DNA of 35,493 nt from a virus. The stretch spans positions 1-35,493 of the IMG/VR virus record IMGVR_UViG_3300030503_000195. One strand, 5' to 3'. The translations under genes were made by a program, and so were the position numbers. Shown in pieces: positions 18,679 through 35,263 of the stretch. The notes beneath the pieces are model-generated. The model was not told the DNA's origin. It saw only the letters and a program-made list of their open reading frames with translations, and did not search any database. Within the stretch, counting starts at the first letter, position 1. Each line of letters begins with the position of its first letter.

Positions 18679-18682
18679 TCAT

Positions 18683-19072: not shown

Positions 19073-19131
19073 AAATAGTTTACGATTTATGTGGACATAA
19101 CCCAACGGGGTGGCATGATGGACGCATGAAA
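19071..19131 (+). repeat. 61-bp promoter repeat, copy 1
   Basis: Identical over 61 bases to 21258-21318. It covers the end of one gene, an A+T-rich upstream part (TTTACGATTTATG), the promoter, and the first two codons (ATG AAA) of a small gene. The genes downstream of the two copies are unrelated after Met-Lys. Confidence 0.95.
19092..19125 (+). promoter_or_regulatory. AACCCAACG-type promoter, leaderless layout
   Basis: -35 TGGACA at 19092-19097, a 17-base spacer containing TAACCCAACG, and a -10-like box at 19115-19120 (ATGATG; CATGAT one base earlier is the better sigma-70 match). The ATG at 19126 comes 5-6 bases later, so transcription would begin at or beside the start codon. Confidence 0.6.
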
Positions 19132-19359
19132 TATTGCTATTACGTTAAGACAAACTTACAAGACGGGTACATCACAACCGACGTGTGGGACACGGTTGCC
19201 GTAGTTGCCCAAGTAATCGAGGCTAAGGAGAATCGTTTCCAGAATGCCCAAGAAGTTCTTCGGGTAGAAAAGCTGAATTGGGAAGACTGTCAAGGCCGTC
19301 GTGAAACGATGGATAAGCACCCTTTCAGTTTCTCCAAACACCACAAACCTACGGTATGA
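19126..19359 (+). CDS. small early-type protein
   Basis: A 77-residue protein of unknown family with a charged middle (QVIEAKENRFQNAQEVLRVEKLNWED) that looks helical. The start is set by the promoter directly upstream: the in-frame extension runs back into the previous gene and is not needed. The gene would be translated from a leaderless or near-leaderless mRNA. It overlaps the next gene by four bases (ATGA). Confidence 0.55.
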   Translation: MKYCYYVKTNLQDGYITTDVWDTVAVVAQVIEAKENRFQNAQEVLRVEKLNWEDCQGRRETMDKHPFSFSKHHKPTV

Positions 19360-19556
19360 AATTTGTATCCGTGTCAGGTTCCACCGTTACCGGTGCGGGC
19401 AAGTTCATGCCGGAGACATTCACCCTGTTGATGTCTCGCGGTGGGTTCCGGCTTAAACCGATGGTCACAACCGTCACCCGTCCGGGGTTGCGGGAGATGA
19501 TCAAGCTACTCCGCAGGAAGGGGTATACGTCTATTTATCCGCAGAGGAAGGTATGA
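19356..19556 (+). CDS. small hypothetical protein
   Basis: A 66-residue basic protein; the start codon overlaps the previous stop as ATGA. The sequence (FTLLMSRGGFRLKPMVTTVTRPGLREMIKLLRRKGYTSIY) has a helix ending in a turn. No family recognised. Part of a short operon beginning at the promoter at 19092. Confidence 0.5.
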   Translation: MKFVSVSGSTVTGAGKFMPETFTLLMSRGGFRLKPMVTTVTRPGLREMIKLLRRKGYTSIYPQRKV

Positions 19557-19603
19557 CCACACCCGAACTAAGGTCACGGATAGACAAAATGAAAGCACAA
19601 TGA
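19553..19603 (+). CDS. possible 16-residue mini-gene
   Basis: ATG at 19553 overlaps the previous stop and the TGA overlaps the next ATG, giving a 16-residue peptide (MTTPELRSRIDKMKAQ) with ATGA junctions on both sides. It could be a real coupled peptide or simply a re-initiation bridge to the next gene. The perfect overlaps are the only evidence. Confidence 0.3.
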   Translation: MTTPELRSRIDKMKAQ

Positions 19604-19977
19604 GTAATCAATTTGACCCGATGAAGTACACCCCCGGCCCATGGCAATGGGCCGACAGGAATAACGATGAAGTTTATAATTTTGATATTCCTCAAAGTCG
19701 ATTGACTACGGCAGCACAGCATCGTTACGGACTAGGATTGTCTTTAAGAACGGTAGCGGAATACGGAAGGGAAAACTGTTCATTTAAGCTGCCGGAATTT
19801 ATCTGTGAAGCAGAAGAAATTTCTCGTGGAAATGCTCAACTATTAGCTACAGCACCCGAGCTTCTAGAGGCATTAAAAGATTGCGTCGAAAAGCTTAAAG
19901 AGGTTGGCGTTCACCATGAGCTTTATGAAACCGCCGAGGAAGTCATAGCCAAAGCAGAAGGAAGGAAATCCCCATGA
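19600..19977 (+). CDS. phage protein with TPGPW start motif
   Basis: A 125-residue protein. The opening YTPGPWQW and the later pattern NAQLLATAPELLEALKDCVEKL (about residues 85-106) are hallmarks of a widespread phage family of unknown function. The DNA is richer in A+T than its neighbours. It is coupled by ATGA to the mini-frame upstream. Role unknown; such proteins are usually early accessory genes. Confidence 0.7.
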   Translation: MSNQFDPMKYTPGPWQWADRNNDEVYNFDIPQSRLTTAAQHRYGLGLSLRTVAEYGRENCSFKLPEFICEAEEISRGNAQLLATAPELLEALKDCVEKLKEVGVHHELYETAEEVIAKAEGRKSP

Positions 19978-20023
19978 CCCCCGCACAATGGGTGATATGA
20001 CTGGCACGGTATATTCTGAGGGG

Positions 20024-20058
20024 TTGACAAAACCCAACGATTGAACTACACAAACTTT
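20024..20058 (+). promoter_or_regulatory. AACCCAACG-type promoter, leaderless layout
   Basis: TTGACA (20024-20029), 17-base spacer with AAACCCAACG, then TACACA (20047-20052) and six bases to the ATG at 20059. The -35 is perfect, the -10 is weak. An in-frame TTG at 20041 lies inside the promoter and is not a believable start. Confidence 0.65.
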
Positions 20059-20376
20059 ATGAGTACAAAAACCGAACAACCCAAACCCGCACCGCGCATG
20101 GTGGCCATTACATGCCCCAAGTGCGACAAGACTTCGAAGCACCTTGTCACGTCCGTGCTTGGCCACATCGTCACGCCCAAGAAAACCGCGTCCGCTATTG
20201 AGAACGGCATGAAGGGTGGACGGCCCAAGGGTGAAAGCCTGTCCGCCTTGAAAAAGCACATGGCAGACATCAAGGCGGGACGTGTGACCGTCTCCCCCAA
20301 TGAGCGCCACTCGCTTGGCCGATTGATTCGCCGCCGGTTGCAGGCGAAGGCGTCCAAGGAAGTTTCAGGGAATTAA
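20059..20376 (+). CDS. small basic protein with a CxxC pair
   Basis: A 105-residue basic protein. ITCPKCDKTSKHL near residue 18 is a single zinc-knuckle-like half-site. Residues 45-65 (ASAIENGMKGGRPKGES) contain GGRPKG, an AT-hook-like stretch also common next to phage helix-turn-helix segments. A DNA-binding role is plausible but unproven. It is the first gene after its own promoter. Confidence 0.55.
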   Translation: MSTKTEQPKPAPRMVAITCPKCDKTSKHLVTSVLGHIVTPKKTASAIENGMKGGRPKGESLSALKKHMADIKAGRVTVSPNERHSLGRLIRRRLQAKASKEVSGN

Positions 20377-20382
20377 ACGGCC

Positions 20383-20649
20383 ATGGCCAACTTTAAACTA
20401 ACCCCGGAACAGGCGGAAGAGGTGACGGACTATTTGCGCGGTACTTGCAACGATCCTGCCGAGTGCTTGGAAGCGTTTCCTTTTTTCAAGGACGTGGACG
20501 AAGGGCAGGCAACGGACGCCATCAACGAAGCGTGCGCAAGTGCCGAGATTGAACGGTGCGACACGTGCTCATGGTGGGTGGAAGATAACGAGTGCAACCA
20601 GCATGGCGTGTGCAGCGATTGTGCGGAAGACGAAGGGAACGAAGATTAA
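20383..20649 (+). CDS. small acidic zinc-ribbon-like protein
   Basis: An 88-residue acidic protein. The C-terminal half has CDTCSWW and CNQHGVCSDC (residues about 59-80), two cysteine pairs that could bind one zinc. The N-terminal part (LTPEQAEEVTDYLRGTCNDPAECLEAF) is helical. Unknown function. Six bases after the previous stop, same operon, and overlapping the resolvase gene. Confidence 0.6.
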   Translation: MANFKLTPEQAEEVTDYLRGTCNDPAECLEAFPFFKDVDEGQATDAINEACASAEIERCDTCSWWVEDNECNQHGVCSDCAEDEGNED

Positions 20650-21115
20650 TATCATCGCCATCGATCCCGGTGCCAACGGGGGCATTGCCCGTTTGCGTAA
20701 TGGCGAGTTTAAGCTCTGGCCCATGCCTTCCACCGAGCTTGACCTAGTGGAACTGTTGGGGAGCCTGATTGGCAACGTCACGGAAGAACCGTGCATCGTC
20801 TACCTTGAACAGGTGGGTGGATTCACCGGTGGCCCGTCACCGGGTTCTGCCATGTTCAAGTTTGGTTGGTGGGCCAGTGGCCCGGCGTGGATTGCCCTTT
20901 GCTACCAAGCCCGGTTGGTAATGATCACCCCGCAGAAATGGCAAAAGGAAATGGGATGCGGCACACGGGAAACCAAGGGCAGCGCGGGGACAACCAAGTG
21001 GAAGAACAAACTAAAGGCGATGGCCCAACGGTTGCACCCGGAATTGGGCATCACGCTTAAGACGGCGGACGCCCTGTTGATTTTGGAAGCGGCTTTGAAG
21101 TTGGAAAAGATTTGA
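20621..21115 (+). CDS. RuvC-like Holliday junction resolvase
   Basis: About 164 residues. RNase H-fold nuclease that cuts four-way junctions, used by phages to resolve recombination and packaging intermediates. IIAIDPGANGGIA carries D15, IVYLEQVGG carries E63 and LKTADALLILEAA carries D150, the classic spaced acidic set. The start is uncertain: GTG at 20621 overlaps the previous gene by 29 bases, ATG at 20603 is also in frame, and an ATT at 20645 after GAAGGGAACG is possible. The core homology begins at about 20648. Transcription probably ends at the terminator at 21191-21250. Confidence 0.8.
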   Translation: MRKTKGTKINIIAIDPGANGGIARLRNGEFKLWPMPSTELDLVELLGSLIGNVTEEPCIVYLEQVGGFTGGPSPGSAMFKFGWWASGPAWIALCYQARLVMITPQKWQKEMGCGTRETKGSAGTTKWKNKLKAMAQRLHPELGITLKTADALLILEAALKLEKI

Positions 21116-21257
21116 CGGTTGCAAACGTCGATAGTTCGCCTGCATGTCGCGAAAGCGGGGGGACGCCGGAAGTCTCGAAAGGCGAGTGTTAAAGCGGGTT
21201 GGTGAAGGTTGAATGGCGTAATCGCACTAGACCCCACCGGCCCGCTTTTTCGTGTCC
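21116..21257 (+). other. structured non-coding stretch before a terminator
   Basis: No gene fits here. Several hairpins are visible: GACG/CGTC around GTTGCAAA (21113-21128), CGC-GAAA-GCG with a GNRA-type loop, CGCCT/AGGCG enclosing it, and the long terminator stem. It could be an extended 3' leader or a small RNA. I checked for a tRNA and saw no T-loop. Confidence 0.4.
21191..21250 (+). terminator. rho-independent terminator with long stem
   Basis: AAAGCGGGTTGGTG (21191-21204) pairs with CACCGGCCCGCTTT (21235-21248) over 14 base pairs including two G-U pairs, and a run of T follows. It closes the operon ending with the resolvase, and the next promoter begins about 30 bases later. Confidence 0.7.
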
Positions 21258-21318
21258 AAAAATAGTTTACGATTTATGTGGACATAACCCAACGGGGTGG
21301 CATGATGGACGCATGAAA
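21258..21318 (+). repeat. 61-bp promoter repeat, copy 2
   Basis: Exact copy of 19071-19131, placed just after the terminator. The identity ends right after the start codon and one Lys codon. Confidence 0.95.
21279..21312 (+). promoter_or_regulatory. AACCCAACG-type promoter, leaderless layout
   Basis: TGGACA at 21279-21284, spacer with TAACCCAACG, -10-like box at 21301-21307, ATG at 21313 five bases later. Same element as at 19092. Confidence 0.6.
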
Positions 21319-21513
21319 CAAAACGAAGGTAACACTTACAAGTTCCTAGACGGCGACGTTTACGAATTCACTCGCGAAGGGGTAAAGCAGATTGTGGCCA
21401 CTCGCCGCACGCCCGGAAGCTACCCAATTACGCGCACCTATTTTGTGGCCACCTTCCGTTCGGCAATACGCCACATGGAAAAAAGACATGGCCGTTCCAC
21501 CGTGATTGCTTGA
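21313..21513 (+). CDS. small early-type protein
   Basis: A 66-residue protein of unknown family with a likely beta-sheet opening (NTYKFLDGDVYEFTREGVKQIVATRR) and a basic helix at the end. It starts at the promoter repeat, so its mRNA would lack a leader. The promoter for the AAA+ gene overlaps its last codons. Confidence 0.55.
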   Translation: MKQNEGNTYKFLDGDVYEFTREGVKQIVATRRTPGSYPITRTYFVATFRSAIRHMEKRHGRSTVIA

Positions 21514-21547
21514 CAACCAAAACCCAACACTCTTGAATTCAACCCAC
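21510..21547 (+). promoter_or_regulatory. AACCCAACA-type promoter for the AAA+ gene
   Basis: TTGACA at 21510-21515, a 17-base spacer with AAAACCCAACA, and TTGAAT at 21533-21538. The ATG at 21548 comes nine bases after. This spacing leaves a very short leader, slightly longer than at the other promoters. Confidence 0.6.
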
Positions 21548-22681
21548 ATGGCAACTAAACCTTTCCCCACCCCTGCGGGGGCAATTGACGGTGACGAAGA
21601 TATGAAGACGACGGCGACGACCGAACCCACGCCCTCAGTAGTTATCAAGCATCAACGCGACATCCCCAACGGTACGGAAGTCCCTATTACTGTCAATGGC
21701 TCCCGTGTCATGGGCGTCAAGGTGGGCTATCTCGCGGACGTGGACAAGTGCTTGGTGAAGTACGGCCCACACACGCACCGCCGTAAAATCCACGGGTTCG
21801 GTGCCGCTGCACCCCGTGTGGCAGTTGCGGAAGAACCCGCCACCAATGGCCAATCCCTATCTCAGAATGGGCAGCTAGTGGATGGCCCGGCCAAGCCGTG
21901 GCAAACCGGCATGGTGCAGGAAGAGGAAGTCCCCACCTCTCGTTTTTCGGTGCATGAGCGTTTCCAGTTCATTGAAGAGTTTGCGGACGGGGTTATCTTG
22001 GGCGATGCCAATAGCTTGGTTGTATCCGGCTCCGGTGGACTCGGCAAGACATACACCATCCTTGAACGTCTGGCCCTCGCCAAGAAAGTCAGTGAAGACG
22101 ACGTGGCACCGGGCAAGCCTTACGATTATACCATGGTTAAAGGCTTCTCCACTCCCAAGTCCATGTATCGCCTGCTATTCAATAACAAGGACAAGCTTGT
22201 CACCTTTGATGATTGCGATTCCGTCCTTGATAACCCAACGGCGGTGAACATTCTCAAAGCGGCTTTGGACGATAAGAAATCCCGGTGGGTGCACTGGCTT
22301 TCAGAAAAAGGCTTTGGCGGTGGCGAAGACGAAGACGATTTGCCCGTGCGGTTTGAGTTTACCGGGAAGATTATTTTCATCTCGAATCGTTCGCTAACCC
22401 AAATCGATCAAGCCATCTTGTCACGATGCTTCTATGTGGATGTCACCATGACCCGGCAGGAGAAGATAGACCGCATCCGCGAGCTATCCGGCAAGATGCT
22501 CCCCGCCATGGAACTGGAAGACAAGTTGGAAGTGGTGGACTTGATGGACAGCCTAAAGGAACAAATCGGGGACTTGAACTTGCGCACGTTCGGCAAGGTC
22601 TGTGACATCCGCCGACGTAGTCCCAATAACTGGCGCAACCTTGCCGAGTACCTTGTCACGGCCAACATGGGTTCCAAATGA
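21548..22681 (+). CDS. AAA+ ATPase
   Basis: A 377-residue ATPase. Walker A GSGGLGKT (residues 161-168), Walker B LVTFDDCD (D221 and D222), sensor-like IIFISNRS, and a conserved arginine-rich end. Residues 1-130 are a variable N-terminal part with an SH3-like section (GTEVPITVNGSRVMGVKVGYL...). The middle (VKGFSTPKSMYRLLFNNKDKL) is typical of phage ATPases of unknown specificity. Possible roles are helicase loading or DNA handling. A dispersed-repeat copy (21604-21620) encodes MKTTATTE near the start. The ATG at 21548 is set by the promoter. Confidence 0.8.
   Translation: MATKPFPTPAGAIDGDEDMKTTATTEPTPSVVIKHQRDIPNGTEVPITVNGSRVMGVKVGYLADVDKCLVKYGPHTHRRKIHGFGAAAPRVAVAEEPATNGQSLSQNGQLVDGPAKPWQTGMVQEEEVPTSRFSVHERFQFIEEFADGVILGDANSLVVSGSGGLGKTYTILERLALAKKVSEDDVAPGKPYDYTMVKGFSTPKSMYRLLFNNKDKLVTFDDCDSVLDNPTAVNILKAALDDKKSRWVHWLSEKGFGGGEDEDDLPVRFEFTGKIIFISNRSLTQIDQAILSRCFYVDVTMTRQEKIDRIRELSGKMLPAMELEDKLEVVDLMDSLKEQIGDLNLRTFGKVCDIRRRSPNNWRNLAEYLVTANMGSK
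21604..21620 (+). repeat. dispersed 17-bp repeat, exact copy
   Basis: GAAGACGACGGCGACGA, here read as KTTATT in the disordered N-terminus of the AAA+ protein, one frame away from the EDDGDE reading in the terminase. Confidence 0.8.
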
Positions 22682-22956
22682 CATACGAAGAAGCCATCAA
22701 GCGAACGATTGCCCGCGACTTGGCGAACTATAAAATCCGCTATGCGGGCGAGGTTCGCCGCATGGTGGGTTGGATCAATTGGCTACCTTACGAAGTGCGG
22801 TTGCAGGCCGGGGTTTTTGTGGATGCTCTCGGCACCGAGACATTATGTTGGGAACACCTTGACTTTGAAAAGCTGTCCCGTGAATTGTGGTTGCTTGATA
22901 CAGTGCCACCCCATATTGAGGAAGCACTTAAACCGAAAGGCACCCATTTAGTATGA
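22678..22956 (+). CDS. hypothetical protein
   Basis: A 92-residue protein starting in an ATGA overlap with the AAA+ gene. Charged helical opening (YEEAIKRTIARDLANYKIRYAGEVRRMVGWINWLPYEVR) with tryptophans. No family recognised. Tight coupling suggests it works with the AAA+ ATPase or is at least made together with it. Confidence 0.55.
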   Translation: MTYEEAIKRTIARDLANYKIRYAGEVRRMVGWINWLPYEVRLQAGVFVDALGTETLCWEHLDFEKLSRELWLLDTVPPHIEEALKPKGTHLV

Positions 22957-23198
22957 AGCTAGAAGACGCCTTCCCCAACCCGGACGATCTCGCCAAGGTG
23001 CGGGAGATTGAAGCGCGGGCCACCCGTGCGTCCAACCGTATCCACATGGAAGCTATGTCAAACGGCGACATCACAGGCACCCGCATGGCGGAAATTGTAC
23101 AGGAGGAAATGCCCCACCTATCCCGTCATCAATGCCTTGAAATTGTTCTAGCCATCGTTACCGAACTGGCCAGCGCCGAGGCGGCAGAAAATAATTGA
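22953..23198 (+). CDS. hypothetical helical protein
   Basis: An 81-residue protein, almost fully helical by composition, starting in an ATGA overlap. It contains MAEIVQEEMPHLSRHQCLEIVLAIVTELASAEAA (about 45-78). No recognised domain. The end of the gene lies in the 53-bp promoter repeat that starts at 23188. Confidence 0.55.
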   Translation: MKLEDAFPNPDDLAKVREIEARATRASNRIHMEAMSNGDITGTRMAEIVQEEMPHLSRHQCLEIVLAIVTELASAEAAENN

Positions 23199-23240
23199 AA
23201 ATAAATGTGGACATAACCCAACGGATGCACGATACTCTGT
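23188..23240 (+). repeat. 53-bp promoter repeat, copy 1
   Basis: Exact over 53 bases with 35209-35261. It spans the last codons of the upstream gene, an A+T-rich part (AATTGAAAATAAATG), the -35 box, the AACCCAACG spacer and the -10 box. Confidence 0.95.
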
Positions 23241-23242
23241 CC
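23208..23242 (+). promoter_or_regulatory. AACCCAACG-type promoter, leaderless layout
   Basis: TGGACA (23208-23213), 17-base spacer with TAACCCAACG, GATACT (23231-23236; five of six match TATACT), then six bases and the ATG at 23243. The strongest member of the family. Confidence 0.72.
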
Positions 23243-23446
23243 ATGAAACAAACCACTAAGAAAGCACCGCTGAAAGAGTTTTTCGTTGTAACCACGATGA
23301 GTAAAGAAACCATCCGCCAAAACCTCCGCATGCGGATGGCGGGTTGGATTCGTAATCAACTGGCAGGTGGTGCGGGTAACTTCTTTTCTGCCGTTCAAGT
23401 GTCTGAGATTTCTTGCCTGCTCTCTGACTTAAAGTTTGCGAAATGA
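23243..23446 (+). CDS. small basic protein
   Basis: A 67-residue basic protein (MKQTTKKAPLKEFFVVTTMSKETIRQNLRMRMAGWIRNQL...). The start is placed at the promoter; an upstream frame exists but crosses the promoter. Unknown family. It is followed by an ATGA overlap with the next gene. Confidence 0.5.
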   Translation: MKQTTKKAPLKEFFVVTTMSKETIRQNLRMRMAGWIRNQLAGGAGNFFSAVQVSEISCLLSDLKFAK

Positions 23447-23664
23447 AACGCACCACCAACCGCCGCCTATGGTCAACCCCGGTTCGCCGGGGTGAAGTGG
23501 ACGTCCTCGAATTCTCTTCCCCAACCGGGGGAGTGGTTCGCACCATCACCAAGCTGGAAATTGCCGGGCAACCGCTGGCCCGAACGGAAGCCGCTTCGTA
23601 TCTTATGTCCTACGCCCTTTCCTTGGCCGTCACCACTGCCAAGGATCAACACCCTCATGGGTAG
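23443..23664 (+). CDS. small hypothetical protein
   Basis: A 73-residue protein starting in an ATGA overlap. A strand-rich first half (GEVDVLEFSSPTGGVVRTITKLEIAG) is followed by an Ala-rich helix. Unknown function; third of a chain of coupled small genes. Confidence 0.5.
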   Translation: MKRTTNRRLWSTPVRRGEVDVLEFSSPTGGVVRTITKLEIAGQPLARTEAASYLMSYALSLAVTTAKDQHPHG

Positions 23665-23872
23665 GCGTCACGTTTTCCAACGGCGGAAAAAGCATCGCCC
23701 GAAACATTCCGTCGCCGTCGTCGCCATGATCCAAAAAGCTAAACATATTATTGCTATGCAGGCTATCCCCAAGCCCGTTAAACCAAGCCTGTGGCAGCGT
23801 GAACAGGAACGCCTAGCGGCAGACCCGGACTATCAGGCAAGCCGTGGATACTACCGGAGACACCGTCAATGA
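23657..23872 (+). CDS. small very basic protein
   Basis: A 71-residue protein with MGRRHVFQRRKKHRPKH at the start and RGYYRRHRQ at the end. Very high Arg/Lys/His content suggests nucleic acid binding. A minus-orientation dispersed repeat (23709-23725) encodes SVAVVA. The ATG at 23657 overlaps the previous gene by eight bases and is preferred to the upstream frame. Confidence 0.45.
   Translation: MGRRHVFQRRKKHRPKHSVAVVAMIQKAKHIIAMQAIPKPVKPSLWQREQERLAADPDYQASRGYYRRHRQ
23709..23725 (-). repeat. dispersed repeat, minus-orientation variant
   Basis: CCGTCGCCGTCGTCGCC on the plus strand, differing from the exact copies only at its 3' end. It is the only minus copy inside the otherwise plus-oriented stretch from 21.6 to 32.5 kb. 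Confidence 0.65.
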
Positions 23873-24453
23873 TTGCATCTTACTCCGGCAACCCCTTCCG
23901 TGACATCCTTCCCGGCGGTTCGCCCACCGAACCTTTCAGTAAACCCCCGCAGGTACTAATCGGGCCAAGGCCGTTTTTAGTCCTCATGCTTTGGGACATC
24001 CCCACAATCAAGTCACGCATGGGCGTTGCATCGTGGGAGAAGTTCAAGGCGGATGGCGTCACGGCCCAAGCCAAGGTACGTGAAACGGATGGCAGCGAAT
24101 ACTATGCGCGTGTCATCAAAGACGCCAACGTGGAACTAACCCTCACCGGTTTCCGTGGCCCACCATGGGAAGCGGATTATAAAAAATTTGTAACAACGGA
24201 ACCCGTATTTAACCAACCGGAGCTAGAACTAGACATGACCATACTACACGCCTTCCACACCTATATTGTGGAGGACATCTATCACGAGTTACCCAAGGAC
24301 GAAGCGGAACAACTGGCAGAAGAGTTGGCCCAAGAGGGCGGCACGTTGCAGGCCGCCAAGGCCATCCTTGATTGGCCGGAGGACTATTTCATGGAGACCT
24401 TGGAAGCGTTCTTCACCCGCGAGGTAACCGGCTACGCTAACGACGGGGAATAG
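23869..24453 (+). CDS. hypothetical acidic protein
   Basis: A 194-residue protein starting in an ATGA overlap. It has a Pro-rich opening and a helical acidic C-terminal half (LPKDEAEQLAEELAQEGGTLQAAKAILDWPEDYFMETLEAFFTREV). No family recognised. It precedes the helicase and may be a partner, but nothing in the sequence proves it. Confidence 0.6.
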   Translation: MIASYSGNPFRDILPGGSPTEPFSKPPQVLIGPRPFLVLMLWDIPTIKSRMGVASWEKFKADGVTAQAKVRETDGSEYYARVIKDANVELTLTGFRGPPWEADYKKFVTTEPVFNQPELELDMTILHAFHTYIVEDIYHELPKDEAEQLAEELAQEGGTLQAAKAILDWPEDYFMETLEAFFTREVTGYANDGE

Positions 24454-24455
24454 CC

Positions 24456-27149: not shown

Positions 27150-27260
27150 TCCAAGTTGATTTTGACTTATATGGCGTTCTGTTGGGAAATGACCACTTCT
27201 GTAAAGGTGGGAAGGATCAACGACTTACAAAAGACAGTACAATTTCCAAGGGGATCATGG

Positions 27261-27290
27261 CGGACATAACCCAACGACGCCCTATAAACG
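27261..27290 (+). promoter_or_regulatory. AACCCAACG-type promoter candidate without adjacent start
   Basis: CGGACA-like -35 at 27262-27267, spacer with TAACCCAACG, then TATAAA close to the expected -10 position. No start codon follows at the usual distance, so the RNA would be non-coding or have a long leader. Confidence 0.4.
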
Positions 27291-27395
27291 ATTTTCTCTG
27301 TAAGTGGATATAACCCAACGGGTTACAAGAGGGCGATAATAAACAGGCTAAATAATACTATTCAGGATGTTAAGCAACGACAAAACCCAACACCG

Positions 27396-27412
27396 GAAGA
27401 CGACGGCGACGG
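27396..27412 (+). repeat. dispersed 17-bp repeat, exact core, intergenic
   Basis: GAAGACGACGGCGACGG in the non-coding control region, four bases after an AACCCAACA motif. This is the clearest copy free of any coding constraint. Confidence 0.8.
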
Positions 27413-27460
27413 ACAACGGACGTCTTAACGATGACCGTTAAAATAATTTTACGATTTAAT

Positions 27461-27499
27461 TTGACGGCCATGGCCCACTTAGGGCATGTTCCCTAACGC
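27461..27499 (+). promoter_or_regulatory. possible promoter for the TOPRIM operon
   Basis: TTGACG (27461-27466), 17 bases, then GCATGT and ten bases to the ATG at 27500. It shares the upstream TTTACGATTTA phrase of the 61-bp repeats but lacks the AACCCAACG spacer. Moderate to weak. Confidence 0.4.
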
Positions 27500-27796
27500 A
27501 TGAACGAGTCCAAATCCCAAACGGGTGGTGGCGTAACGCGCACCACTGAGACAGTCACCACAACCATTAGCACCGTTAAGTGTCGCATCTATATTGAAGA
27601 GGTGCAGAAGGTGCAGGTGCCTCGCCGTAAAAATAATGACTTTGGGTATTCTGTTTTTGTGACGGAAACATCTACGTTCGGAAAAGGTGTAGTCTATGAA
27701 GAATGCGGCGAACCTCTTCACGTCAAGGGTCTGCCACTTCCTCATGATGCACGTGCGGGAATAGTTTATGAGATTAGCATTACAGAGGTTAAATAA
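27500..27796 (+). CDS. hypothetical protein before the TOPRIM gene
   Basis: A 98-residue protein with a Thr-rich opening (TRTTETVTTTISTVKC) and a mixed beta-like C-terminal part. Unknown family. Its stop is five bases before the next ATG, so it belongs to the same operon. Confidence 0.55.
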   Translation: MNESKSQTGGGVTRTTETVTTTISTVKCRIYIEEVQKVQVPRRKNNDFGYSVFVTETSTFGKGVVYEECGEPLHVKGLPLPHDARAGIVYEISITEVK

Positions 27797-27801
27797 CTCC
27801 C

Positions 27802-28848
27802 ATGAAGGAAATATTTGTCCCCCAACGTTTCGCTACCAAAAGCGAAAAGCTTCTCACCACCATCACGTCCATTTTGGAAGACATGGCAAGCCAAGGTTAC
27901 TCACTTTCGGTTCGCCAGCTTTACTATCAACTGGTGACGATCAACGCCATACCCAACAATCACAAGTCCTATAAGGTCATCAAGGCTTTGGTATCGGACG
28001 CACGGCTTGCGGGCCGGATCGATTGGGACATGATCGTTGACCGTGCACGCAACGCTTCACGGCCCCGGAATTGGGAGAACCCGGCAGATGCGATACGTTG
28101 GGTTGCGGGCCAATTCCAGATAGACAAATGGATTGACCAACCCTACCACGTGGAAGTCATGGTGGAAAAGCAAGCCTTGGAAGGCGTGTTGGAACCGGTC
28201 TGTAATGAACTGGACGTGACCTTCACGTCAAACAAGGGGTACAGTTCCCAGACCATGATGTACGAAGCGGGCAAACGCTTGGAACACTATTTAAGCATCG
28301 GAAAGAAAATCCTCATATGCTATCTTGGTGACCATGACCCAAGCGGGATTGACATGACACGGGACGTAACCGAACGTCTGGAAATGTTCTCCCGTTCCGG
28401 TGACGTGCGAGTCGATAGACTTGCTTTAAACCTGCCCCAAGTCCGGCAGTACAACCCACCAGAGAACCCGGCCAAAACCACGGACTCCCGTTGCCAAGGC
28501 TATATTGACAAGTTTGGCACGTCCTCATGGGAACTGGACGCGCTGGCCCCAAGTGTCCTCGCCGGATTGCTGCGCACGTCCATTGTCGCCGTCCGTGACG
28601 ATAAGCTTTGGGAAAAGCAAGTGGCGAAGGAAACCAAAATGTTGGCAGAAATCAACGACTCGGTTTCTGAAATTGAGAACCCCAAGCACTCCAAAGGAAT
28701 GTTTGAAGCCGCTGTCTCGGATGTCCAACGTTACGTGGGGCAAGTCAATGACCGCGATGGGGAAATTGAACGCTTGAAAGCTGCCCTCAAAAAGCGGAAG
28801 ACGGCGACGAAGACGACCAAACCTAAAACCAAGAAAGCTAAAAAATAA
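27802..28848 (+). CDS. TOPRIM protein related to Topo VI-A/Spo11-type folds
   Basis: A 348-residue protein. The N-terminal helical part (SVRQLYYQLVTINAIPNNHKSYKVIKALVSDARLAGRIDW, about 35-74) resembles the winged-helix region in front of Topo VI A-like TOPRIM domains. The TOPRIM motifs are E122 (VMVEKQALEG) and D177/D179 (YLGDHDPSGIDM). Such proteins occur in many phages, and their biochemical action is not settled. It lacks an obvious catalytic Tyr in the usual context. The basic tail (KKRKTATKTTKPKTKKAKK) is encoded in part by a dispersed-repeat variant at 28797-28818. Confidence 0.75.
   Translation: MKEIFVPQRFATKSEKLLTTITSILEDMASQGYSLSVRQLYYQLVTINAIPNNHKSYKVIKALVSDARLAGRIDWDMIVDRARNASRPRNWENPADAIRWVAGQFQIDKWIDQPYHVEVMVEKQALEGVLEPVCNELDVTFTSNKGYSSQTMMYEAGKRLEHYLSIGKKILICYLGDHDPSGIDMTRDVTERLEMFSRSGDVRVDRLALNLPQVRQYNPPENPAKTTDSRCQGYIDKFGTSSWELDALAPSVLAGLLRTSIVAVRDDKLWEKQVAKETKMLAEINDSVSEIENPKHSKGMFEAAVSDVQRYVGQVNDRDGEIERLKAALKKRKTATKTTKPKTKKAKK
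28797..28818 (+). repeat. dispersed repeat variant with insertion
   Basis: GAAGACGGCGACGAAGACG followed by ACC; a variant with an extra GAAGAC unit, encoding KTATKTT in the basic tail of the TOPRIM protein. Confidence 0.5.
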
Positions 28849-29390: not shown

Positions 29391-29394
29391 TCAC

Positions 29395-30747
29395 ATGAAA
29401 AAGAAAGCGCATGCCCCCGTCTCCCGAACTGTTTCCCGTAAACCGCAACCCCAACGGCCATCCGTCCGAAAGGACACGCCGTCTCGCCCTCCTGCTAGAA
29501 GCACGAATGTTCGCCGCGCACTTCCGCTTGCACCTGTGCGAAAAGTCAAACCCGTGTTGCCCAAGGCACCGGCGCAAGATGATCACGCGAAGCGTTCGCC
29601 GTCCAGTTTGAAGAACCGGGAACAGTGCCCCGGTTTTGAACCGCGCAAGGGCGATTCCGTCTTTAGCGCGGAAGGCCACCACCTGCATTTCCGCATGGAA
29701 ATGTGGGCGGCAGAACAGCGCGGATTGCCTCTTCCCAAATGGAAAGACAAAGAACCCATGCCGGACTTGACCGTGGAACAGGAAGGGCTTTTGGAAAAGT
29801 TGCAAGGGTACGTGTCCCAACTCCTACACGGTTTTGATCAAGACGGCGTGCACCTTGAACGCAAGTTGGACTTGAGGCCATTGGGTCTGCCGGGTTGTGA
29901 CTTTGGCACCGCTGACTTTATTGGTATCCGCCAAGGTGTGGCCACCCTCATCGATTATAAGTTTGGCAAGGTGGAAGTTGACGACCCGGAAGAAAATGTC
30001 CAGTTCCATGCCTACGCACTGGCCATCTTCCTTACCTTCCCGCAGGTGGATTGCATTAGCGTCGTGGCGCTGCAACCTCGGTTAGATTGTGTCTCCACCG
30101 CCACATTCATGCGGGCGGACATTCCAGCTTTGACGCTTCGTCTCAAAGTCATTATCGAGAGGTGTGAAGCGATGGCGGTGCCGTTCGCACAGGTGATGGA
30201 TGGCGTGGTTTCTATCCATGAAGAATTTGTCCTCAGCCAACTAAACCCGCAGACGTCCCTATGCGAGTACTGTGCCCACATTGGCACTTGCCCGGCGGTG
30301 GCGGCATTCGCGCTTAAGCTCGTACCCGGCCCCAAACTGCCGGAAGTGCTCAACCCCCACAAGCTCACCAAGGATGAAAACGGCCTTGGCCAACTTTTCG
30401 CATGGGCCAAGCTGTGCGAGGAGAAAGGCAAATCCCTGCAAAAAGAAATCGGACGGGTGGCCCAGTCCGGTGCAGACGTTGCCGGGTATCATCTGGTCAA
30501 CGGATCAACGCCTTCCACGCTTCTTGACCCTGTTGGGTTGTGCCAAACCCTCATCAAGAAACACGGCTTTACTGAGGAACAAGTTTTCTCATGTGTCCAA
30601 GTCTCCATGGAAAAGGTTGAATCTATCGTGGCGGCAACCGCACCCAAGGGTAAGAAGGAAGCTTACGCTTTGGAGATCAATAAAAAGGTGAAGTCCGGCG
30701 GTTTCTACAAACCCGGCTTTGGGTACTCCTACCTGAAAAAGAACTAA
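29395..30747 (+). CDS. Cas4/AddB-like PD-(D/E)XK nuclease with Fe-S cysteines
   Basis: A 450-residue RecB-family nuclease. Core motifs: GTADFIG (D174), LIDYKFGK (D187, K189) and the following QFHAYALAIF (QxxxY). Four cysteines match the 4Fe-4S pattern of Cas4 and AddB: C78 before the core (NREQCPGF), and C290, C293 and C299 after it (CEYCAHIGTC). Phage DUF2800-type proteins have the same plan. It probably processes DNA ends for recombination. The first 70 residues are Pro/Lys/Arg-rich and disordered. An upstream in-frame ATG at 29311 lies in the previous gene and is unlikely. Confidence 0.82.
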   Translation: MKKKAHAPVSRTVSRKPQPQRPSVRKDTPSRPPARSTNVRRALPLAPVRKVKPVLPKAPAQDDHAKRSPSSLKNREQCPGFEPRKGDSVFSAEGHHLHFRMEMWAAEQRGLPLPKWKDKEPMPDLTVEQEGLLEKLQGYVSQLLHGFDQDGVHLERKLDLRPLGLPGCDFGTADFIGIRQGVATLIDYKFGKVEVDDPEENVQFHAYALAIFLTFPQVDCISVVALQPRLDCVSTATFMRADIPALTLRLKVIIERCEAMAVPFAQVMDGVVSIHEEFVLSQLNPQTSLCEYCAHIGTCPAVAAFALKLVPGPKLPEVLNPHKLTKDENGLGQLFAWAKLCEEKGKSLQKEIGRVAQSGADVAGYHLVNGSTPSTLLDPVGLCQTLIKKHGFTEEQVFSCVQVSMEKVESIVAATAPKGKKEAYALEINKKVKSGGFYKPGFGYSYLKKN

Positions 30748-30788
30748 GCTCTGTCAGTCAACTAAACCAAACGAAAGAACAAACGCAT

Positions 30789-31961
30789 ATGGCCCGTAGC
30801 TCATTCGGTCAACGACCAACCACCGGCACCGCCGGAGTCCCAACTGCAACCCCTGCACCCGCAGCAACCCGCACACCCCCGCCGCCTCGTGGTGGCAGGA
30901 CGGCGACGACGGTGGCGGCAGCACCAACCCAAGCCGCTAATCGTCCCCCGGCTCGTGGTGCGGTTGCGCAACCTGCCGCCGCAACTTCGCGTCCGCTTCC
31001 TCCCCGTCATGGCGCTCCGGCCCCTGCACCGGAACCGGAAGCTGCACCGCAAGTGGAAGAAACCCAAACGCCGGAGGTGTTGCCGCCCGAGACGCAATTA
31101 CCTGCCACGGTTCCGGCGACTCGCACCCGCCGCACCAAGGCGAAAATTGCTGCGGATGCTGCCGCCGCTGGCACGCATTCCACCGAGACAGTCACCCCCG
31201 GACAGTCAACGGCGGTTGTGGTGCATGAACCTAGTCACGGCATGACCCCTGCCGGTTCCATTGAAGGTGATGTGGAACAGTCAGACTTGAACCTGCCCCA
31301 ACTCAAGATTGCCAACGCCGTTGGGCCGTTGTCGTTGCTTGACCCACCGATACCCGTTGGCACCATCGTTATTGGTGCGAGTGACCAGTGGATTAACTTG
31401 TGGGAACAGTGGACGGAAACAGACCCCGCCACCCGCAAGCCTGTCCAGAGGGAAACAGAACCGGTGGGCATCACCATCATTCGTGCAACCAAGTACCTTG
31501 TGCAGGACACCGACGAAACAGGCAAAAGCCTTTTCGACATTGAAGGTGCACAGGGGATGCGGTTCAAATGCAACGACGAAGGCAAGCATTTGATGGCCAC
31601 AGCGGGCGGCATGCTTGGCAACCCCGTTCCCGGAATGTTGGGTTTTGTCCCCCAACTCGATTGCCATGTGATGATCCGCAAGCCGGAACACGTGGATGAC
31701 GATCTCGGGTTGTTCAACGTTGAACAGCCGGAAGGGCTGTTTGCCCCCGCCATGTGGTACATCCGGGGATCATCTTACAACGAATGCGCCGTGAAAATCT
31801 TCACGGAAAAAACCCAATTCCTCAAGGCCGGTAGTTACACCGGGGAATTCTTGATGGACGGCAAGCGCATCGTGGGCAAGAAGAATGCGTGGTACATCCC
31901 CCGTCTCACCAACGGCGCGTTGCACCCTGCCGAGTTGGCGGAATTCTTCGCTGGTTGCTAA
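30789..31961 (+). CDS. putative ssDNA-binding-position protein
   Basis: A 390-residue protein. About 150 residues at the start are Pro/Ala/Thr-rich and disordered. The rest (about 160-390) is a folded part with VGTIVIGASDQWINLWEQW, VGITIIRATKYLV and a strand-rich end (GFVPQLDCHVMIRK...GEFLMDGKRIVGKKNAWYIPRL). In phages with a DUF2800-like nuclease next to a family A polymerase, a single-strand DNA-binding protein often lies between them. That, not a recognised OB-fold motif, is the basis of this call. A dispersed repeat (30899-30915) lies in the disordered part. Confidence 0.5.
   Translation: MARSSFGQRPTTGTAGVPTATPAPAATRTPPPPRGGRTATTVAAAPTQAANRPPARGAVAQPAAATSRPLPPRHGAPAPAPEPEAAPQVEETQTPEVLPPETQLPATVPATRTRRTKAKIAADAAAAGTHSTETVTPGQSTAVVVHEPSHGMTPAGSIEGDVEQSDLNLPQLKIANAVGPLSLLDPPIPVGTIVIGASDQWINLWEQWTETDPATRKPVQRETEPVGITIIRATKYLVQDTDETGKSLFDIEGAQGMRFKCNDEGKHLMATAGGMLGNPVPGMLGFVPQLDCHVMIRKPEHVDDDLGLFNVEQPEGLFAPAMWYIRGSSYNECAVKIFTEKTQFLKAGSYTGEFLMDGKRIVGKKNAWYIPRLTNGALHPAELAEFFAGC
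30899..30915 (+). repeat. dispersed GC-rich repeat, permuted variant
   Basis: GACGGCGACGACGGTGG, encoding RTATTVA in the disordered N-terminus of the SSB-position protein. Confidence 0.55.
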
Positions 31962-32017
31962 TCTGATTGGGTTCTAGGTAGGCGTAAATTATCGGTGCGT
32001 TATAACTGTCCCGGCAC

Positions 32018-32176
32018 ATGGAATCCAATCCCACATTGATGAAAACCCGAAACAAAAAGACGCCGGTAGTAAAGCGTCAACCCCGTGGGTTATTCTTGCG
32101 AGAGCGCAACGGGGTTTGGGAACAGATAATCAGAGAACACCTTTTCCGCCGCCTCTGTGCGCGTGGGATCGAATAA
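32018..32176 (+). CDS. small basic protein
   Basis: A 52-residue frame filling most of the 227-base gap after the SSB-position gene. It is Arg/Lys-rich (MKTRNKKTPVVKRQPRGLFLRERNGVW...HLFRRLCARGIE). The ATG at 32018 or an internal ATG at 32039 may be used. A TATAAC box ends about ten bases before the first ATG, but no good -35 is seen. Likely but not certain to be coding. Confidence 0.45.
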   Translation: MESNPTLMKTRNKKTPVVKRQPRGLFLRERNGVWEQIIREHLFRRLCARGIE

Positions 32177-32188
32177 ACAAAGGAACCT

Positions 32189-32557
32189 ATGAGTAAAGTA
32201 TGTGCAGTAACGGGAAAGCCCATGACGGATACGGAACTTGATTTTGGCGAGGCACCTTGCCTTCTTTCGGTGGGTGCACCAGTCACCGGTCAACCTGTAC
32301 TGGCGTTAGCCGTCACCATCCGGCAACGTGGCCAGTTCCATGAAGACATCCACGTTTCTCGTGATGGCATGGAGAAACTCTTGATGGAAGCGGCGGAAAA
32401 CGTCCCCACCCAAGTGAAGCCCACGGCAGTGACCGCGAAGACGACGGCGGCGACGGAACCCAACGGGATCGTGGAAAACACCGAACCGGACGCCACTGGT
32501 TCCACGGGTGCCAAGAAACCCGCACCGGAAGGCAACGCCCCCAAACTTAAGGGCTAG
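32189..32557 (+). CDS. hypothetical protein with acidic tail
   Basis: A 122-residue protein with a good ribosome site (AAAGGAACCT). The first 75 residues are folded-looking (VCAVTGKPMTDTELDFGEAPCLLSV...); the rest is Thr/Pro/Ala/Lys-rich with a dispersed-repeat variant at 32437-32457. Function unknown; it lies between the SSB-position gene and the polymerase. Confidence 0.55.
   Translation: MSKVCAVTGKPMTDTELDFGEAPCLLSVGAPVTGQPVLALAVTIRQRGQFHEDIHVSRDGMEKLLMEAAENVPTQVKPTAVTAKTTAATEPNGIVENTEPDATGSTGAKKPAPEGNAPKLKG
32437..32457 (+). repeat. dispersed repeat variant with GCG insertion
   Basis: GAAGACGACGGCGGCGACGG, the core with one extra GCG, in the linker of the 122-residue protein; it abuts an AACCCAACG string at 32457-32465. 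Confidence 0.6.
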
Positions 32558-32563
32558 TAATCT

Positions 32564-32631
32564 GTGCGCGGTGGTGTCCTTGTGGACAGGATAGAGCTTT
32601 CAATCGTTTCTCTTTATCAACCGCCGCGCAC
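32564..32631 (+). other. stem-loop in the leader of the polymerase operon
   Basis: GTGCGCGGTGG (32564-32574) pairs with CCGCCGCGCAC (32621-32631), 11 base pairs with one G-U. A smaller hairpin TGTCC-TTGT-GGACA lies inside it (32576-32589). No U tract follows, so it is not a classic terminator. It sits 14 bases before the next start and could act on translation. Confidence 0.5.
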
Positions 32632-32645
32632 TCCACTTTAATATT

Positions 32646-32960
32646 ATGGAAGACTCCCCCAACATTTCCCGCCTCACTTCGCCCGATGGCAATGGCTATC
32701 TTTTCAAGGGCATCGATGAACTATTCGCGTGGGCAAAAGCGCATGACAGGCTTTACCGTGACGCCCTCTATTGGGCCAAGACGATGAACTGTAATGAAGT
32801 GGAAACACTCCGGTTGATCCTCATTGCCTACATCAAGGACAGCGAGCGGAGGACGAAGGAATCGGTTAGCATGTTTATCAGCCCTAGTTCCCCGTCAACG
32901 GCACATCTCACTTTCCCGCACCCCAACCAAAAGCCCATTACCACTCCCATACCCGAATGA
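32646..32960 (+). CDS. hypothetical protein upstream of polymerase
   Basis: A 104-residue protein with a helical middle (DELFAWAKAHDRLYRDALYWAKTMNCNEVETLRLILIAYIKDSE). Unknown family. Overlaps the polymerase gene by an ATGA junction, so the two are translated together. Confidence 0.55.
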   Translation: MEDSPNISRLTSPDGNGYLFKGIDELFAWAKAHDRLYRDALYWAKTMNCNEVETLRLILIAYIKDSERRTKESVSMFISPSSPSTAHLTFPHPNQKPITTPIPE

Positions 32961-34903
32961 AAAAAGTCTATGCCGTCGATTTTGAATCCTACTATGACGC
33001 CGAAATTTCCATCGGAACCATGGGCGTTGATCGTTACTGCCGTGAGACTGACATCTATCTAGTCTCCGTCGTTGGCCCGGACGGTGAAGAGTTTGTGGGA
33101 AGTCCGCAAGATTTTGATTGGAACCTTTTAGTAGGCCATGAAATATGGTCACATAACGCCAGTTTTGACCGTTACTGCTATCGAGTTTTGCGTGAACGAA
33201 GCGTAGAAACGGTATGGGAATCGGACGATAACGGATATACCACAGGCGTTACCCACGAGGAAGGGGAATGGCCAGACCTTGAGACCCCACTATGGAACTG
33301 TACGGCTAATCTGGCCACGTTCTTCCGGGGTGGACGTTCGCTCAAGAAGGCGGCAAAGAACCTGTTGGGTTTGGAGCTTACCAAGGACACCCGGGACGCC
33401 ATGAAGGGTGTAAAGTGGGCCATGGCCGCTTCCATGCCGTCATCACAGGGCTTTGCTAATTTTCAAGAGGAGATCATCGCCTATGCTGCCAACGATTCCA
33501 AGGTGTGCCGTCAACTCGCTGTCCAGTTCGGCCCGCGATGGCCCGAAACCGAATGGCGTTTAAGTGACCTTACCACACAAGGCTGTCACCACGGTGTGCC
33601 GCTGGACATGGAAGCCTTGCGGAACGGCAAGACGTTACTGGAAACCAAGATATGGGAGGTTGACCAGAACTTGCCGTGGGTCACGGGCATTGAAGGTCAC
33701 ATGGCAGGCGGCATGCCCGCGTTGTCCCCCAAGGGTCTGGCAGAAGCGTGCCGTGTCTATAACATCCCTCACCCGCCATCCACGGCGGAAGACGATGCAC
33801 GCTGCATCCTGTGGGAAAATCGTTACGGTGCCGATTACCCGTGGGTATCTGACATGCGGGAACGTCGCAAGGCCAATATCCTGCTTAAGCGTGCGGACGT
33901 GTTGCTTGACCGGGAAGTGGACGGCATGTACCGGTACGAATTGAAGTATCACGGTGCCCACACGGGCCGGTGGAGTGGCGGACGTGAAAAGGAAAAAGCC
34001 GGGGATGGAGGCAAGGGGTTCAATATGCAGAACCTTCCCAAGAAACCTGCATTTGGTTTTGACCTGCGGGCATGCATCAAAGCACCGCCGGGTAAAAAAT
34101 TAATCATCGCTGACTTGTCCCAAATTGAGGCACGCATCACGCCTTACTTGGCCGGAGATGACGCGCTTATCCAGTTGATTTGCGACGGGATGAACGTGTA
34201 TGAAGCGCATGCCCGGTTGACCATGGGCTATTGCATCAATGAAAAGCTCAAGTCCAGTGCCCCGGATTTATACGCACTTGCGAAAGCTCGCGTGCTCGCA
34301 CTCGGGTTTGGTTGCGGTTGGCAACGGTTTCGGGATCAAGCACAGATTGAATATGGCGTGGGTCTGGATTGGGCGGCGGCAGTATGGAAACAACAGGTTA
34401 AGGATTACCGCGAGTCCAACCCCAAGATTGTCCGCCTGTGGAATCGTCTGGACATCGAATTTAAAGAGTCACTTGGCGGTGATTACGAGATTGAACTGCC
34501 ATCGGGCCGGATGCTGACTTACTTTGATGTTTCCACCGGGATGAAGACGACGAAGGTGGCGGAAGCCAAGGACACCGAACCCGGCGAATACACCCGGCAG
34601 GGGTTCAAGGCACGGGTTGAGATTGGTGGCACGTTCAAGTGGATGTACGGCGGCTTGCTGACTGAGAACCTTGTACAGGCAACCGCCCGTGACGTGTTCG
34701 GATTGGCGCTTCTGAGGGTGCAGGATGAACGGCCCGATTTAACTTATCTGTGGCCCACCCATGACGAAGGCGTTTGGCTTGCCGATGAAGACGACGACAC
34801 GGCCAAGCGTGACGTGGAAGAAATGTTGTGCGTGACACCCGATTGGCTTCCCGGTTGCCCCATCGGTGCCGAGGTTGTGGAGACGTTAGTATACGAAAAA
34901 TAA
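32957..34903 (+). CDS. family A DNA polymerase with proofreading domain
   Basis: A 648-residue replicative polymerase. The 3'-5' exonuclease has DFE (D8, E10), HNASFDR and YAANDSKV. Polymerase motif A is LIIADLSQIEAR (D386, E391), motif B includes AKARVLALGFGCGW (K443), motif C is HDE (602-604). Aligned on K443, the residue matching E. coli F762 is L447, and F451 stands where Y766 is. Leu at this position has been linked to temperate or slower phages in published surveys. There is no 5'-3' exonuclease domain. The gene starts in an ATGA overlap. Confidence 0.92.
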   Translation: MKKVYAVDFESYYDAEISIGTMGVDRYCRETDIYLVSVVGPDGEEFVGSPQDFDWNLLVGHEIWSHNASFDRYCYRVLRERSVETVWESDDNGYTTGVTHEEGEWPDLETPLWNCTANLATFFRGGRSLKKAAKNLLGLELTKDTRDAMKGVKWAMAASMPSSQGFANFQEEIIAYAANDSKVCRQLAVQFGPRWPETEWRLSDLTTQGCHHGVPLDMEALRNGKTLLETKIWEVDQNLPWVTGIEGHMAGGMPALSPKGLAEACRVYNIPHPPSTAEDDARCILWENRYGADYPWVSDMRERRKANILLKRADVLLDREVDGMYRYELKYHGAHTGRWSGGREKEKAGDGGKGFNMQNLPKKPAFGFDLRACIKAPPGKKLIIADLSQIEARITPYLAGDDALIQLICDGMNVYEAHARLTMGYCINEKLKSSAPDLYALAKARVLALGFGCGWQRFRDQAQIEYGVGLDWAAAVWKQQVKDYRESNPKIVRLWNRLDIEFKESLGGDYEIELPSGRMLTYFDVSTGMKTTKVAEAKDTEPGEYTRQGFKARVEIGGTFKWMYGGLLTENLVQATARDVFGLALLRVQDERPDLTYLWPTHDEGVWLADEDDDTAKRDVEEMLCVTPDWLPGCPIGAEVVETLVYEK

Positions 34904-34907
34904 AAAT

Positions 34908-35114
34908 ATGCGAATGATTGTTATCCGAGAAGACCTATACGATGAAAGGCTGAAAGATGTTCTCACCATCTTAAAGGCCAAGTGCGATGAATTGGGCGAA
35001 CGCGGGAGCCAATTTGATTTGGAGAATGGCACCCGCAAATCGTGCATGGAAAACATCCGATCAACCATGCATTTTGAGATTTGCAGGATGCTACAAAAGC
35101 TTAAAGACTTGTGA
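34908..35114 (+). CDS. small helical protein
   Basis: A 68-residue protein, nearly all helix by composition (EDLYDERLKDVLTILKAKCDEL...). Four bases after the polymerase stop. Unknown family. Its stop overlaps the GTG of the next small gene. Confidence 0.55.
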   Translation: MRMIVIREDLYDERLKDVLTILKAKCDELGERGSQFDLENGTRKSCMENIRSTMHFEICRMLQKLKDL

Positions 35115-35209
35115 AAAATAAAAATCGTTGGTTGCTTTCCGTCGCCGTCGTCTTCTACATCTGCACGCAAATACTCAACCGGTTGAGCCGGTGGATGCGT
35201 CCTTGGTAA
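35111..35209 (+). CDS. 32-residue membrane protein
   Basis: GTG start in a GTGA overlap; the peptide is VKNKNRWLLSVAVVFYICTQ followed by ILNRLSRWMRPW. One hydrophobic helix (WLLSVAVVFYICTQIL) flanked by basic residues, so a small inner-membrane protein is likely. The hydrophobic VAVVFY is encoded by a minus-orientation exact copy of the dispersed repeat. Its last codon overlaps the second 53-bp promoter repeat. Confidence 0.5.
   Translation: MKNKNRWLLSVAVVFYICTQILNRLSRWMRPW
35139..35158 (-). repeat. dispersed repeat, exact core on the minus strand
   Basis: Twenty bases identical to 18386-18405, here within a membrane helix. Confidence 0.8.
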
Positions 35210-35261
35210 AAATAATTGAAAATAAATGTGGACATAACCCAACGGATGCACGATACTCTGT
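35209..35261 (+). repeat. 53-bp promoter repeat, copy 2
   Basis: Exact copy of 23188-23240, placed before an unrelated gene that starts at 35264. Confidence 0.95.
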
Positions 35262-35263
35262 TT
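35229..35263 (+). promoter_or_regulatory. AACCCAACG-type promoter, leaderless layout
   Basis: TGGACA (35229-35234), 17-base spacer, GATACT (35252-35257), six bases, ATG at 35264. Same as at 23208. Confidence 0.72.

Follow-up and report, generated by a model that had tools for sequence, protein, structure and literature searches.

The window analysed here is a virus record of IMG/VR (IMGVR_UViG_3300030503_000195) of 35,493 bases, which is classed as linear and is thus possibly a fragment; the feature in question is a family of promoter-like cassettes in its right half, between 19092 and 35263, together with the short asymmetric motif that they share, whose 8-bp core is AACCCAAC. According to the gene model, nearly all genes of the window run rightward. 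They encode first a gpA-type terminase, a lambda-type portal, an S49 protease, a major head protein and a tape measure; the part from about 18.5 kb contains small genes as well as genes for an AAA+ protein, a helicase, a topoisomerase, a DUF2800/PD-(D/E)XK-like protein and a family A DNA polymerase. The feature is real and rather clean, and it has known parallels.

Six sites of the family had been singled out in a first-pass annotation as a TGGACA or TTGACA box, a spacer opening with the motif, a -10-like box and, only 5-6 bases further on (nine at 21510), an ATG. All six can be read in the sequence with these boxes, and the distance to the ATG was measured as 6 nt at 19092, 20024, 21279, 23208 and 35229. 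The layout is TGGACA-16-CATGAT-6-ATG at 19092 and 21279, TGGACA-17-GATACT-6-ATG at 23208 and 35229, TTGACA-17-TACACA-6-ATG at 20024 and TTGACA-17-TTGAAT-9-ATG at 21510. The promoter family thus exists, but its six sites are not independent, two of them being duplicates of others: a repeat search showed that 19071-19131 equals 21258-21318 over 61 nt (100% identity) and that 23188-23247 matches 35209-35268 over 60 nt (97%, two mismatches), the two duplicated types, A and B, being about 60% alike. The six sites reduce to three types (A, B and C) plus 21510.

Cassette A1 (19071..19131, + strand) comprises an AT-rich, UP-like block, TGGACA at 19092, TAACCCAACG, the extended -10 TG-G-CATGAT (19114-19119) and the ATG at 19126, which opens a gene for a protein of 77 amino acids (aa; 19126..19359, +). 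Its perfect 61-nt copy A2 (21258..21318, +; TGGACA at 21279, ATG at 21313) precedes a gene for 66 aa (21313..21513, +). Cassette B1 (23188..23247, +) has an AT-rich block, TGGACA at 23208, GATACT and an ATG at 23243, with an in-frame alternative ATG at 23225, and leads into a gene for 67 aa (23243..23446, +), while B2 (35209..35268, +; TGGACA at 35229, ATG at 35264) leads into a gene truncated by the contig end (35264..35493, +). The proteins behind A1, A2 and B1 are of unknown function, and all four lack a PHROG or Pfam match. Since the duplicated unit reaches from the AT-rich block to the start codon, and no similarity is visible between the genes after A1 and A2 or between those after B1 and B2, it is the regulatory cassette that has been copied, not the genes.

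Type C (20024..20061, +; TTGACA-17-TACACA, ATG at 20059, motif AAACCCAACG) has no AT-rich upstream block and stands before a gene for 105 aa (20059..20376, +) with a CxxC zinc-ribbon-like start, a basic GGRPKG stretch and a weak, sub-threshold Pfam match to YnfU (E 0.006); its product is a speculative DNA-binding candidate. The weakest member is site D (21510..21550, +; ATG at 21548), where TTGACA, the 17-nt spacer and the 9 nt to the ATG are in place but the motif is off-register: AACCCAACA is shifted by 4 nt, beginning 5 nt rather than 1 nt past the -35 box and ending in A, and may be a chance AACCCAAC. A coordinated regulon of small accessory genes and the AAA+ gene had been proposed earlier; the family does precede small accessory genes, but the site of the AAA+ gene is this weakest one. 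That gene (21548..22681, +) belongs to phrog_1250 (function unknown; PHROG E 2e-48), and its product is 29-35% identical to proteins of Bacteroides and T4-like phages; in IMG/VR neither the AAA+ protein nor the helicase has close relatives.

The duplicated types A and B have the look of genuine sigma-70-type promoters, matching the -35 and -10 hexamers at 9/12 positions with a spacing of 16-17 nt, inside the usual 16-18 nt; C and D combine a perfect -35 box with a -10 matching at 3/6. All four TGGACA sites are among the matches of a plain sigma-70 scan of 18-35.5 kb, in which A1 has a TG ahead of its -10 and which gave no overall excess of promoter-like sites (14 vs 12.3 in shuffles). In the 21 nt upstream of the -35 box of A and B the AT fraction is 0.81-0.90, and these UP-like blocks lie directly upstream of TGGACA, where an UP element would be placed. 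The combined word TKGACAWAACCCAAC occurs six times in the window, five times as TKGACAWAACCCAAC-N17-23-ATG, and neither form appeared in 200 dinucleotide shuffles. Promoter and motif are separable, since a related promoter at 27438..27502 (+; ATG at 27500; repeat family D4, 79% like the upstream block of cassette A) has the AT-rich block and TTGACG without the motif. Cassettes A and B did not fold as RNA hairpins more strongly than shuffles, and no known RNA family was matched. In the right half, the strongest sigma-70 match is a separate one, CTGACA-18-TATAAT at 18650-18685 (11/12), which ends 3 nt before the ATG of gene 18683; at that distance the ATG could not be used from this promoter.

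Two other ways of using such sites have to be weighed. An activator, of phage or host, could bind the motif as a middle-gene switch and recruit RNA polymerase to promoters that are weak alone, and TGGACA does differ from TTGACA at an important base while the -10 boxes agree at 3-4/6, as in activator-dependent promoters. However, the motif lies over the -35 box and the spacer, where activators rarely bind without replacing -35 recognition, the AT-rich block suggests a promoter strong unaided, and copies far from promoters would be left unexplained; we regard an activator as unlikely. Alternatively, the 20-nt ATGTGGACATAACCCAACGG could be the whole promoter of a single-subunit phage RNA polymerase, with transcription starting just after it and leaders of about 18-20 nt. 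This would suit the contiguous ATGTGGACATAACCCAACGG common to A and B, whose downstream -10 regions differ, and the fixed 19-20 nt from AACCCAAC to the ATG, but it would turn the -35/-10 geometry into a coincidence and does not fit type C, which lacks the upstream half. No RNA polymerase gene was matched among the proteins scanned against PHROG and Pfam, on a contig that is possibly incomplete, and a phage polymerase appears highly improbable.

From the short distance between box and ATG, mRNAs without a leader had been predicted. Transcription starts 6-8 nt past the -10 box, and the ATG lies 6 nt past it in three different downstream contexts, so the first transcribed base would fall on or beside the A of the ATG; as geometry, this part of the annotation was borne out at A, B and C. 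Leaderless genes are known to follow a rule of a TA-like signal about 10-12 bp upstream (PMC3160421), and the sites have the corresponding layout of a -10-like box about 5-8 nt before the start without a Shine-Dalgarno (SD) sequence, the gap being 6 nt in A, B and C and 9 nt in D. SD use in the phage as a whole is near background, with 15 of 53 genes at -4.5 kcal/mol or better vs 19% of random positions, which suits leaderless or SD-free starts; a weak G-rich stretch (-5.4 kcal/mol) is present in cassette A. A search for the same box-to-ATG distance in three genomes carrying related prophages returned few promoter-like matches only. Leaderless mRNA from the cassettes is plausible on this geometry, and we hold it to be rather probable.

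The motif itself is not confined to promoters. Whereas it had been described as a promoter spacer motif, its copies occur throughout the genome, in coding regions and on both strands, so that we are probably dealing with a dispersed binding site which in some places overlaps a promoter, and this dispersed-site claim replaces the promoter-only one. On a second-order Markov score, no 8-mer of the window is more over-represented than AACCCAAC (28 copies vs 2.5 expected; 20 on the + strand, 8 on the -), and the extended site GACAWAACCCAAC is found 10 times and in none of 200 dinucleotide shuffles. Eleven of the 28 copies lie outside genes, in 1,791 of the 35,493 bases (5%; P 5e-8, and 3e-6 without duplicates), a per-base density about 12-fold that within genes; 10 of these 11 are on the + strand. 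Before the start codons, the distance from AACCCAAC to the ATG is constant at 19-20 nt. Further copies had been missed at first, those at 84-69 on the minus strand and at 27261, 27305 and 27384 as well as the 17 inside genes. When the gene-internal ones were used to ask whether the layout arises at arbitrary places, none was found to have a -35 near consensus together with a -10 and an ATG at the right spacing. With synonymous codons permuted inside each gene, 2.7 coding copies were expected vs 16 observed (16 or 17 depending on one borderline copy, as the gene models differ slightly), and 3.2 when the next base was held as a control for codon junctions, with a maximum of 7-8 in 200 shuffles; among all coding 8-mers the word ranks first, or second with the junction control. 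This is not the enrichment of a picked maximum, because the word had been fixed beforehand by the promoters.

Against a dedicated binding protein it may be argued that the promoters are ordinary ones whose shared spacer reflects the recent copying of two cassettes plus chance, AACCCAAC being common by composition or codon pairs. Two duplications do account for 4/6 sites, other words (AGACGACG and GGCCATGGCC) are likewise strongly over-represented, and isolated matches in other phages and genomes occur about as often as chance would give. The coding enrichment nevertheless persists after both the synonymous and the junction-controlled shuffles, and flanks beyond the 8-mer are shared among copies: those of the coding copies are closer to the promoter copies than random flanks are (P 0.0014), and closer than the flanks of other A4C4 words, taken as a composition control (P 0.013). 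Once duplications are removed, the distinct contexts left are A, B, C, the minus-strand copy 84-69 and the coding copy 13168, and the last two and type C have the extended 13-mer in separate contexts. An explanation without any such protein is hence rather unlikely. The motif might instead serve replication, recombination or packaging, in the manner of iterons, Chi or KOPS, with the promoter overlap secondary; copies throughout the window, on both strands in genes, and three of them in an AT-richer gap (27.15-27.50 kb) near the topoisomerase gene would be in keeping with this, but the copies concentrate in gaps before genes at fixed spacing to the -35 box and the ATG, which is not required of such a word, and this role seems quite improbable. 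The motif is better read as a dispersed putative binding site for a phage regulator than as a promoter-spacer code, as its distribution suggests.

Several individual copies deserve mention. The best of those inside genes is ATCGACAAAACCCAACGATA (13160..13179, +), with the highest flank score of the 17 (6.87). The three copies near the topoisomerase gene (27268, 27312 and 27384) form a cluster at 27261..27391 (+); they have no ATG within reach and belong to a 350-nt intergenic gap that precedes gene 27500 and the topoisomerase gene. The latter (27802-28848; phrog_6247, E 3e-103) encodes a protein 39-55% identical to those of otherwise unrelated phages from several host groups. At the left end, the minus-strand copy TGGACAAAACCCAACG (69..84, -) is 79% like cassette B over 34 nt, and the ATG after it opens a frame (MRWVCDTCARK...) that extends past the contig end. 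There, within 1-120 and close to the end of the contig, convergent copies (41 on the + strand, 76 on the -) create a 10-bp inverted repeat that ends in TTTT, can fold (z -2.4, + strand) and is possibly a terminator or an operator pair. Two further words stand out on their own. The palindrome GGCCATGGCC occurs 8 times vs 0.2 expected (1891, 5116, 8249, 10312, 17467, 20379, 27466 and 33418) and in some of 19 sampled Verrucomicrobiota genomes lies far above its reversed control (121 vs 8 in G020), in others being far rarer, so it may be a lineage-specific host signature; the trinucleotide-like GAAGACGACGGCGACGAC ranks with the window's most over-represented words and is found repeatedly, in many genes and on either strand (2549, 4611, 6030, 21604, 25706, 27396, 28800, 32437 and others).

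The host is likely a member of the Verrucomicrobiota, as judged from head genes. When about 290 sampled genomes per phylum were searched, the terminase matched best in Verrucomicrobiota (E 1e-57), less well in the phylum of a Hyphomonadaceae genome (G003; E 9e-29) and not at 1e-20 in that of Arthrospiribacter (G002). Terminase and portal are common to prophages in four genomes (G083, G910, G911 and G891) at about 25-40% identity, and most of these prophages also share the protease and further head or tail genes at the same level. Neither these head-gene relatives nor those identified by their topoisomerase (L061-L072) are enriched in the motif, and a search of 374 genomes of the class of G083 found no cassette A. 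The suggestion that a host factor might bind the spacer motif has become unlikely, because the motif is enriched neither in GTDB genomes nor in sampled Verrucomicrobiota, and it looks specific to this phage. As a feature of host housekeeping promoters the motif was rejected: TTGACANAACCCAAC followed by a -10 box and an ATG gave 32 scattered matches across GTDB vs about 28 expected (an estimate), and TTGACANAACCCAAC had 3 matches in 289 Verrucomicrobiota genomes vs 4 for the reversed-pattern control. A match in a Verrucomicrobiota contig with a PolA homologue (L058) was discarded as a sign of conservation, as it lies within the polymerase coding sequence and is due to chance, and so were IMG/VR matches to TGGACATAACCCAACG, GGACANAACCCAACG and TTGACANAACCCAACG, mostly single and about as frequent as chance predicts. 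TTGACANAACCCAACG has 41 distinct IMG/VR sites, 10 of them with a TAnnnT box 16-18 nt on, which are uninformative because any real TTGACA promoter would show them. The 10 include an unrelated phage (L252, at 3844 and 6009; also L218 and L267; records IMGVR_UViG_3300046809_000252 and 3300046739_000203), whose two promoters TTGACATAACCCAACGGCTAGCCTATATT share the spacer start with the window cassettes but have leaders and ribosome sites of the AAAGGA type. A 170-kb virus contig, the record of L064, contains a tandem array with a 66-bp period and GTACAAAACCAAAC (G297, 57800-59471).

Taken together, A, B and probably C would be promoters for the host housekeeping RNA polymerase, with TGGACA or TTGACA, a weak -10 and, in A and B, an UP-like AT block, and transcription would start at or within about 1 base of the ATG. 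The asymmetric 13-15-bp (G)GACAWAACCCAACG, lying across the -35 box and the start of the spacer, would be recognised by a DNA-binding protein specific to the phage, with further sites scattered over the genome. By occupying the cassettes this protein would obstruct the polymerase and place small-gene operons under common control, as with dispersed operators and stoperators, and elsewhere in the genome it perhaps affects elongation or some other process on DNA. The cassette, UP block and start codon included, has been copied as a unit ahead of unrelated small genes. Site sequences, duplication, geometry and genome-wide enrichment are directly observed, and from them we infer promoter activity, leaderless 5' ends, a binding protein, and repression over activation, the last because the site overlaps the -35 box and an UP-like block is present. 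Several results weigh against this interpretation. The -10 boxes of the sites are weak, agreeing with TATAAT at only 3-4/6; cassette B has its second in-frame ATG 18 nt upstream, and were that the true start the mRNA would not be leaderless; the coding copies are without clear bias in orientation (10 + and 7 -). PHROG and Pfam scans recognised no repressor, integrase or helix-turn-helix (HTH) protein on this possibly incomplete contig, and no relative was found that had diverged enough for conserved sites to be seen, the only close ones (L013 and L015) matching the window at 100% in aligned segments. All considered, we give about even chances to host-polymerase promoters with a phage-specific dispersed operator, leaderless placement and copied cassettes. 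Tentative, and on the doubtful side, is the bolder idea of a Verrucomicrobiota phage with a monomeric asymmetric-site protein and some 20-30 sites, some in the -35 and spacer of copyable leaderless cassettes and the rest in genes, by which one protein would control initiation at accessory operons and also act along the genome.

Little is on record about how Verrucomicrobiota and their phages regulate their genes, and a search on leaderless transcription and transcription start sites in the phylum found no papers in the library that it covered. The site sequence offers a concrete bait for isolating a regulator. Being compact, the cassettes are also candidate modules for expression in bacteria whose phage apparently relies little on SD signals. 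The window would also add a likely non-mycobacterial example of dispersed phage operators.

A close parallel is found in Cluster A mycobacteriophages, in which the repressors of L5, Bxb1 and TipsytheTRex bind operators and stoperators that are 13-bp asymmetric sites (PMC9283540, PMC6550527). In both systems a short asymmetric site has more than 20 copies (here 28 of the 8-bp core and 10 of the 13-mer), distributed genome-wide over promoters, gaps and genes. They differ in that the sequences are unrelated, fixed spacing to start codons is prominent in the window phage and its coding copies are not oriented with transcription, 7/17 gene-internal ones being on the minus strand; an immunity repressor with an HTH and a second DNA-binding domain was likewise not recognised in the PHROGs and Pfam scans of this possibly incomplete contig. 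Because of the orientation and the repressor result the system is not filed as a stoperator system, although the dispersed site may work like Cluster A operators and stoperators. In Cluster K mycobacteriophages, Start-Associated Sequences lie 3-7 bp from the start and contain the SD core (PMC3203893). These, too, are asymmetric repeats of 13 bp that precede the ATG of small, mutually unrelated non-structural genes, almost always in one orientation, and the host essentially lacks them, but the window motif ends 19-20 nt before the ATG, inside the promoter, and AACCCAACG, without an SD core, ends 18-19 nt before it. Cluster O mycobacteriophages such as Corndog have predicted leaderless SigA promoters and a dispersed short repeat, about one third of it inside genes (PMC4351075). 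This combination resembles that of the window, where the dispersed repeat is partly inside genes too; the Cluster O repeat, however, is a 17-bp palindrome mostly unrelated to promoters, whereas the window motif is asymmetric and promoter-embedded. The mobile promoter cassettes of T4-type phages that Arbiol et al. reportedly described in 2010, as cited in PMC4177764, are likewise promoter units copied before unrelated accessory genes; they reportedly come with stem-loops, whereas the folding of cassettes A and B is no stronger than that of shuffles. In the Bacillus phage SPbeta, finally, the 15-bp repeat SPBRE is bound by the repressor MrpR (PMC10516654). SPBRE is intergenic, its protein is known and no claim of leaderless mRNAs attaches to it, but it too was first found in silico at promoters of mostly unknown genes and later proved to be a repressor site, and its history provides a model for how the motif of the window could resolve.

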